Positions 41,300 to 41,658 of a stretch of 64,000 nt of DNA are shown here, piece after piece. A model generated the notes under the pieces. It saw nothing but the letters and a program-made list of their open reading frames with translations. It had not been told where the DNA came from and did not search any database. Location: positions 32,058 to 96,057 of the IMG/VR virus record IMGVR_UViG_3300031963_011530; one strand, written 5' to 3'. Position numbers and translations under genes: made by a program. Origin of the DNA: a virus. The first letter of the stretch is position 1. Every line of letters begins with the position of its first letter.

Positions 41300-41623
41300 A
41301 TAATTGATGCAAGGTGATTGGGTAATAAGGACACCTTGCGAAACCTCATCTAGAGTTTTTAGGCTGCTAGAGCGAACGTTTCATCGTTTGCGTTTACTTT
41401 TTTTGCTTGATTTACGGTCATCGCCTACCGTGTTGTCCATATCCTTACTCATTGCCCTGTCGAAACCATGTCACCCCCATCAAAAGCAAGTTGGAGCTAC
41501 TTATTATACCAACATTCAGGAACCGTAGCGGCCGCACAGTGTCCGAAGCCATTTGCTTTTGGTGGAGGTGGCGGGAGTCGAACCCGCGTCCAGAACACCT
41601 TTCATTCTACTTCATACAACAAT
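41300..41623 (-). ncRNA. ssrA: circularly permuted two-piece tmRNA
   Basis: The 3' (acceptor) piece comes first in transcription, 41623 to 41560: T-arm GCGGG-TTCGACT-CCCGC and acceptor CACCTCC followed by A and an encoded CCA. After an 81-base spacer (41479-41559) comes the 5' (coding) piece from 41478: GGGGGTGACATGGTTTCGAC, the tmRNA 5' signature. GGGGGTG pairs fully with CACCTCC and includes G3-U70, the alanine identity pair. The tag frame at 41391-41359 is GCA then codons for NDETFALAA and a TAA, giving tag (A)NDETFALAA. A GCAAGGTG...CACCTTGC stem (about 41310-41342) closes the coding piece. Ends other than the CCA and the G at 41478 are estimates. tmRNA with SmpB frees stalled ribosomes; no smpB is in the window. 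Confidence 0.93.
41359..41391 (-). other. tmRNA tag reading frame
   Basis: Eleven codons including the stop encode ANDETFALAA. The ALAA end is the ClpXP/ClpAP degradation signal. The tag is close to beta-proteobacterial tags of the type ANDE.(F/Y)ALAA and unlike typical alpha-proteobacterial tags that end in AVAA. Confidence 0.9.
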
Positions 41624-41629
41624 ACTCAC

Positions 41630-41658
41630 ATTATTACATAATATAGATTATTTGTCAA
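41630..41658 (-). promoter_or_regulatory. strong sigma70 promoter of the tmRNA
   Basis: TTGACA (41653-41658), 17-base spacer, AATAAT (41630-41635), 11 of 12 consensus bases. The start would fall near 41623, leaving only about 30 bases before the conserved T-arm stem; no separate riboswitch-like leader fits in this space. Confidence 0.85.

Follow-up and report, generated by a model that had tools for sequence, protein, structure and literature searches.

Permuted tmRNAs in phages and bacteria

Permuted tmRNAs have already been described in phages, and an earlier survey assigns the permuted form to 53 of 133 unique phage tmRNAs (PMC9004378). Methylophilales phage Melnitz and Pelagibacter phage Mosig (MT647606), both T4-like, carry a permuted two-piece tmRNA, as does the window, the 64,000-nucleotide stretch of viral DNA analyzed here. 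The window gene is a further member of this known group, and the statement in an earlier note on this DNA that phage tmRNAs exist, with a two-piece ssrA in Melnitz, agrees with that survey. The same source also reports a glutamine riboswitch for both Melnitz and Mosig, whereas none was found at the window locus.

The likeness to Mosig extends to the surrounding genes. In both phages the tmRNA is preceded by a PD-(D/E)XK nuclease gene and followed by gp59 and gp32 genes, all on one strand. However, the Mosig tmRNA is of the alpha type (RF01849, 67.6 bits; tag GEDNFALAA), whereas that of the window is of the beta type, and the next gene is a late-transcription accessory gene in Mosig and an HPr-like gene in the window. 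A manA RNA motif lies between the tmRNA region and gp32 in Mosig (11380-11587 of locus L002). A beta-type permuted tmRNA like that of the window is present in Alcaligenes phage vB_Af_QDWS595 (RF01850, 93.8 bits), but this phage belongs to an unrelated family (Schitoviridae), its tag is ANDNVYAAAA, and its tmRNA adjoins tRNA genes. The record of this phage carries no annotation for the tmRNA (L003, 2939-3286).

Permuted tmRNAs of Betaproteobacteria (RF01850) have the structure class and gene order seen in the window. They are a minority form in Burkholderiales, where 16 of 300 genomes score above the RF04321 cut-off, 13 of these with more than 120 bits. The spacer between the two pieces measures 5-33 nt in the five of those 13 that the parser could read, versus 55-268 nt in the phages sampled, and by eye a closing helix similar to that of the phages is plain in two of these five far shorter bacterial spacers (L273, L276). 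A search pattern tuned to phages matched none of 399 Burkholderiales genomes and also missed known bacterial permuted genes; because its fixed letters come from phages, this count is not evidence of absence.

Genes nested within tmRNA genes also have precedents. The 2025 tmRNA database paper describes group I introns in tmRNA genes, some with a LAGLIDADG gene, as well as a permuted tmRNA whose intervening sequence contains a tRNA-Ala gene, and mentions a repeat in intervening sequences (PMC11915505). As in these cases, the relatives of the window gene described below carry a gene in the removed part of the tmRNA gene; unlike the self-splicing intron and the RNA gene in that paper, the inserts here are small protein genes between the arms of a closing helix. 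Protein genes in intervening sequences are not mentioned in the part of PMC11915505 available, and the corresponding parts of PMC4131195, PMC7162821 and PMC5964084 hold no report of them in tmRNA spacers. More broadly, no such report was found in the literature searched, the coverage of which leaves out most subscription journals.

A two-piece tmRNA gene in the window

The window is part of a virus record of 96,057 bases, itself a fragment, with T4-like baseplate, gp32 and gp59 genes. On the minus strand, ARAGORN calls a permuted tmRNA with the tag ANDETFALAA at 41268-41652. The Rfam model RF04321 (tmRNA_permuted) matches 41621-41359 with 150.6 bits against a cut-off of 47 (E 7e-30), and RF01850 (beta_tmRNA), the top model of its clan, matches 41672-41305 with 143 bits against a cut-off of 84 (E 1e-43). 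ARAGORN and the two covariance models thus concur that minus-strand positions 41621-41305 are a permuted two-piece tmRNA.

The acceptor piece comes first, followed by the spacer and then the coding piece. The acceptor piece (41560-41621; 5' end approximate, taken from the start of the RF04321 match) comprises the T-arm, the 3' acceptor strand and an encoded CCA whose last base is 41560. The 81-base spacer (41479-41559) is non-coding and structured, and is closed by a helix with its left arm at 41553-41559 and its right arm at 41483-41489. The coding piece (41305-41478; 5' base 41478, 3' end approximate, taken from the end of the RF01850 match) holds the 5' acceptor strand, TGGTTTCGAC, P2, the tag frame and the 3' domain. 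All pairs of the acceptor stem CACCTCC/GGGGGTG are formed, including G3-U70, and the T-arm is full. The tag frame with its stop codon (41359-41391, located by ARAGORN and in the sequence) ends in a hydrophobic degradation signal. Folded without pseudoknots, the gene as a whole is not unusually stable (z = -1.0), and the fold of the spacer region at 41470-41572 has z = -4.2.

These results bear out most of what the earlier note had read from the letters: a permuted two-piece tmRNA with boundaries at 41478 and 41560, an 81-base spacer, complete acceptor pairing with G3-U70, an encoded CCA and the tag ANDETFALAA. The two checks that it had proposed with covariance models gave acceptance of the gene by both tmRNA models and no match to the glutamine riboswitch at the window locus. 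A cmscan search of 40850-42200 at E<=10 revealed no riboswitch on either side of the tmRNA, and 127 kb from 13 relatives yielded none at the gathering level. An ssrA of the Melnitz type with a glutamine riboswitch was therefore rejected for this locus, there being no match at E<=10. The absence of a riboswitch stands, but the argument offered for it, that the promoter leaves no room for a leader, is weakened, since the riboswitch of Melnitz is described within the 3' domain of ssrA and not in a leader (PMC9004378).

Conservation among viral relatives

The main set of relatives comprises 205 unique viral permuted tmRNAs, all from metagenome contigs, among the matches listed. The parser that defined this set demanded all seven acceptor pairs, and spacers of 90-120 and 150-180 nt fell outside the direct scans. 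Because most relatives were fetched by patterns with TCCACCA and GGG as fixed letters, the presence of G3-U70 in the pattern-fetched sets is by construction. The search pattern placed no constraint on acceptor pairs 4-6; all three are formed in every one of 131 unique viral tmRNAs, whereas shuffling of the partners gives 29.8 on average and 45 at most. Base-pair co-variation is thus family-wide.

An independent set of 43 loci was fetched via the neighboring exonuclease, with no tmRNA pattern used. ARAGORN calls a permuted tmRNA in 20 of these loci and no tmRNA in the other 23, and some of the loci end short. Among the 19 that were aligned (L245 was left out) there are 11 distinct sequences, all of which retain G3-U70 and the encoded CCA, while the other acceptor pairs vary on both strands. 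RF04321 accepts all 13 relatives that were run against Rfam, nine of which contain nested ORFs (L233, L240, L409, L412, L421, L436, L438, L442 and L461). Phage genes are present on the two nested-locus contigs inspected.

A tag could be read in 178 of the 205 viral tmRNAs; 91 tags are distinct, and 154 of the 178 end in LAA while 24 do not. The degradation end of phage tags varies, with RIAA, LMAA, PMAA, LMVA and other endings encountered. The exact tag of the window is encoded in 99 bacterial stretches, 97 of which ARAGORN calls one-piece tmRNAs and none of which it calls a permuted tmRNA with this tag. The bacteria that share it include Paraburkholderia, Caballeronia and Pandoraea but also gammaproteobacteria such as Colwellia and Thalassotalea, and a sister phage whose neighboring exonuclease is 99% identical has the tag ANDESYRIAA. 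Because the tag occurs in one-piece tmRNAs of both beta- and gammaproteobacteria and changes between sister phages, it does not identify the host, and host assignment from the tag is ruled out. Of the former description of the tag as betaproteobacterial, what holds is the class of the RNA, which is beta by covariance model; the tag itself is also gammaproteobacterial and among bacteria was found only in one-piece tmRNAs.

Promoter and neighboring genes

A predicted sigma70 promoter precedes the acceptor piece, with the -35 box TTGACA at 41653-41658 and the -10 box AATAAT, with TG in front, at 41630-41635, both on the minus strand, 17 bases apart and conserved in position among relatives. Its consensus score of 11/12 is not significant when taken alone, since 1.2 kb contains three sites of at least 9/12 versus 4.3 expected from shuffles. 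Across 193 relatives, a promoter of at least 11/12 lies immediately upstream in 39, versus 4, 6 and 6 in three control stretches and none in shuffles. Furthermore, over the 51 sites of at least 10/12, the median distance from the end of the -10 box to the CCA end is 71 nt (interquartile range 71-72.5). With 129 of the 193 scoring below 9/12, most relatives have no clear promoter. Given the upstream enrichment over controls and the fixed distance of the -10 box, a promoter from which transcription is predicted to begin with the acceptor piece is characteristic of the family without being universal in it. The gene had been credited beforehand with its own near-consensus promoter, and that claim gains its support from the conserved position in relatives rather than from the score of the single sequence.

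The neighborhood was counted over 165 unique viral tmRNAs, on the same strand and in testable loci only. Upstream of the window gene lies the PD-(D/E)XK exonuclease (phrog_298, 41948-42667), which has this place in 41 of 102 testable unique tmRNAs and hence is not common to all loci. Downstream, also on the minus strand, follow a small conserved protein (40400-40672; 36 of 89 testable unique tmRNAs), an endolysin (phrog_938, 39789-40352; 57/89), a gp59-like helicase loader (phrog_269, 38064-38663; 46/89) and a gp32-like single-strand DNA binding protein (phrog_224, 35406-36296; 38/89). None of the testable loci has the exonuclease, endolysin, gp59-like or gp32-like gene in the opposite orientation. 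Identification of the gene at 40400-40672 as a gp33 homologue of Mosig_00147 was considered and has no blastp support. A gene resembling peptidase S11 or D-alanyl-D-alanine carboxypeptidase occupies 37286-38071 (minus strand).

The gene directly downstream of the tmRNA encodes an HPr-like phosphocarrier (40978-41283, minus strand; PF00381, E 2e-19) with a GLHARA motif. Elsewhere it is present only in L023, L222 and L223 of 301 loci, all near-identical relatives, and its protein has matches in only 14 phage records, none above 35.5% identity. The HPr-like gene is outside the conserved locus. At a greater distance, the window contains a ClpP-like protease gene (48224-48787, minus strand; PF00574, E 2e-33) that head-maturation protease families match too; should it be a true ClpP, proteins tagged by the tmRNA could be among its substrates. 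ARAGORN places an array of 27 tRNA genes at 56663-63592 on the minus strand.

The ssrA fragments of some prophages, which the survey regards as most likely products of imprecise excision (PMC9004378), provide a precedent for viewing the window gene as a dead relic or an accidentally transduced host tmRNA gene. Such an origin is scarcely credible here, given the complete pairing and its co-variation across phages, the retention of a tag frame with LAA as its usual ending, and the conserved neighborhood.

Exchange of the spacer

The spacer of the window is identical at 80 of 81 positions to that of another viral tmRNA, L302. The acceptor stems (GGGGGTG versus GGGCCAG) and the tags of the two genes differ, their flanks are at background identity, and their tmRNA parts are about 80% identical. 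The converse case is L224, in which the upstream sequence (identity 0.94) and the coding piece (0.97) closely match the window while the spacer, acceptor stem and tag are all different. Random flanks have a background identity of 0.59 with a maximum of 0.66, and flanks were accordingly scored as background at 0.66 or less over 300 bases. By this measure, both flanks are at background in 63 of the 75 testable pairs whose spacers are at least 85% identical; these pairs are not independent, as they come from 67 tmRNAs in 26 clusters. The acceptor strands differ in 32 of the 63.

By sequence comparison, then, the spacer is an exchangeable cassette. Homologous recombination in the conserved tmRNA sequence that flanks the spacer would provide a mechanism of exchange. 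Because the gene is permuted, both acceptor strands adjoin the spacer, and a swap would take the spacer with or without both of them. Across 145 unique viral tmRNAs, the helix that closes the spacer averages 10.3 bp with its own partner strand, versus 5.7 (maximum 6.1) with mismatched partners.

The near-identity of the window and L302 spacers, against tmRNA parts that agree at only about four positions in five, together with the strong fold of the spacer region, might also mean that the excised 81 bases act as a small regulatory RNA. This seems quite unlikely to us: the spacer cluster has only two members among the matches listed, and recent exchange accounts for the identity equally well.

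Genes nested in the spacers of relatives

Longer spacers in the relatives are often occupied by protein-coding frames. Among 74 unique spacers of at least 120 nt, 51 contain a frame 25 or more codons long, whose start is no more than 20 nt beyond the CCA and whose stop is 1, 12 or 13 nt short of the coding piece; the other 23 lack one. In the first sample of spacers of at least 140 nt, this nested architecture is present in 28 of 34, versus a mean of 0.08 and a maximum of 1 with shuffled interiors. In that first set, 29 frames reach 45 codons or more; every one of them stops at one of the same three distances, and together they make up 17 families without detectable mutual similarity. Below 140 nt, the architecture occurs about as often as expected by chance (20/131 versus 13.3), with the exception of the 80-95 nt bin (10/49 versus 2.8). 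A hydrophobic peptide frame of 22-24 residues, mostly with a Shine-Dalgarno-like motif ahead, is present in the 79-89 nt spacers of L304, L313, L346, L370, L400, L325 and L352.

The nested frames span 31 to 84 codons, in addition to the membrane-like peptides of 22-24 residues. A thioredoxin with the motif WCGPC (PF00085, E 4e-21) occupies the 268 nt spacers of L436, L438 and L439, and another family has a PGDYG domain just above the cut-off. Pfam searches of 10 nested proteins gave nothing above the cut-off, L422 reaching DUF6552 below it; PHROGs searches of nine gave no match better than E 0.005; and two families have no match in the phage collection. Ka/Ks is 0.08-0.24 in most nested-frame comparisons, the exceptions being L412/L426 (0.50) and L409/L416 (0.74, from only four differences). 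Several nested ORF families are thus under purifying selection.

The origin of the inserts is suggested by the L412 family, which has 34 relatives in viral contigs, six in tmRNA spacers and 28 elsewhere as separate genes; apparently, then, genes that phages already possess can enter the slot. Alleles without and with an insert also occur at loci whose surroundings are almost identical: L360 (61 nt) and L436 (268 nt, thioredoxin), L239 (65 nt) and L240 (175 nt), and L087 (65 nt) and L461 (138 nt). In L414, L417, L369 and L393, spacers of 188 and 63 nt contain much the same short TTG-started frame, which ends early in the 188 nt spacers, as if an insertion came after.

The window spacer has no nested frame; the ATG that follows its left arm opens a frame without a stop before the coding piece. 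The nested genes therefore concern the relatives and not the window. This empty spacer, and the near-chance frequency of frames in short spacers generally, are what would be expected if the locus were an ordinary phage tmRNA that serves ribosome rescue only, with inert filler as its spacer and recombination noise as the cause of spacer sharing. We regard this as unlikely, because the frames of most longer spacers sit at fixed distances from the tmRNA ends, because most Ka/Ks values are low, and because thioredoxin and PGDYG domains are recognized among their predicted products.

A coupled arrangement is possible, if doubtful: the nested Shine-Dalgarno would lie in the left arm and the stop beside the right arm, so that an RNA could either have its insert translated or mature as tmRNA, but not both, and low ribosome availability would favor the tmRNA. 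Shine-Dalgarno-like motifs occur within the first 13 nt in 47 of the 51 nested spacers versus 22 of 131 short ones, 42 of the 51 have a helix of at least 9 bp, and the shared stop positions give 17 unrelated families one geometry. However, the case for coupling is drawn purely from sequence, and the same geometry is expected if the helix serves processing and the genes are fitted between its arms. In the window, which has no frame, only the folding half of such a switch remains.

A probable working gene and its proposed slot

The reading that we prefer, and consider very probable, is that the window, from a T4-like phage, carries a functional tmRNA gene whose spacer is an exchangeable cassette that holds small protein genes in relatives. 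By analogy with established tmRNA biochemistry, host RNA polymerase would start at the sigma70 promoter near the 5' end of the acceptor piece, the precursor would fold, and tRNA-processing enzymes would cut after the CCA (41560) and before 41478, leaving two pieces that would remain paired. Host alanyl-tRNA synthetase would read G3-U70 and charge the RNA with alanine, host SmpB would bring it to stalled ribosomes, and the stalled chains would receive ANDETFALAA for ClpXP-type proteolysis. No SmpB (PF01668) was found in the 96 kb window record, a fragment whose lack of the gene is thus not final for the phage, or in any of four records of relatives of 214-364 kb. Overall, the two-piece tmRNA with its own promoter survives from the earlier note, its arguments from a riboswitch leader and from the tag are weakened, and the behavior of the spacer was absent from it.

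A broader reading, which we hold to be probable, is that the phage permuted tmRNA is a gene-within-gene platform. The spacer would be a mobile slot whose helix arms supply translation signals, AAGGA in the left arm as the ribosome-binding site and UGA-U|GGG in the right arm as the stop for plugged-in genes, and unrelated small genes are predicted to be expressed from the tmRNA promoter. In the window this slot is empty, non-coding and apparently shared horizontally with a different phage. At its boldest, this reading predicts that translation of the insert competes with tmRNA maturation, as might be expected from translation signals positioned inside the helix, and that tmRNA output reads ribosome availability.

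Phage tmRNAs are known, and their use is unexplained. The natural pairs of empty and filled alleles offer material for a direct test of translation versus tmRNA processing, and annotators are pointed to small genes hidden within what is called an RNA gene. If the slot reading is true, the odd permuted form of the gene gains a use: with the acceptor strands beside the spacer, one recombination would swap the spacer and the stem together and leave the pairing intact, and cargo could be added without harm to the mature RNA.
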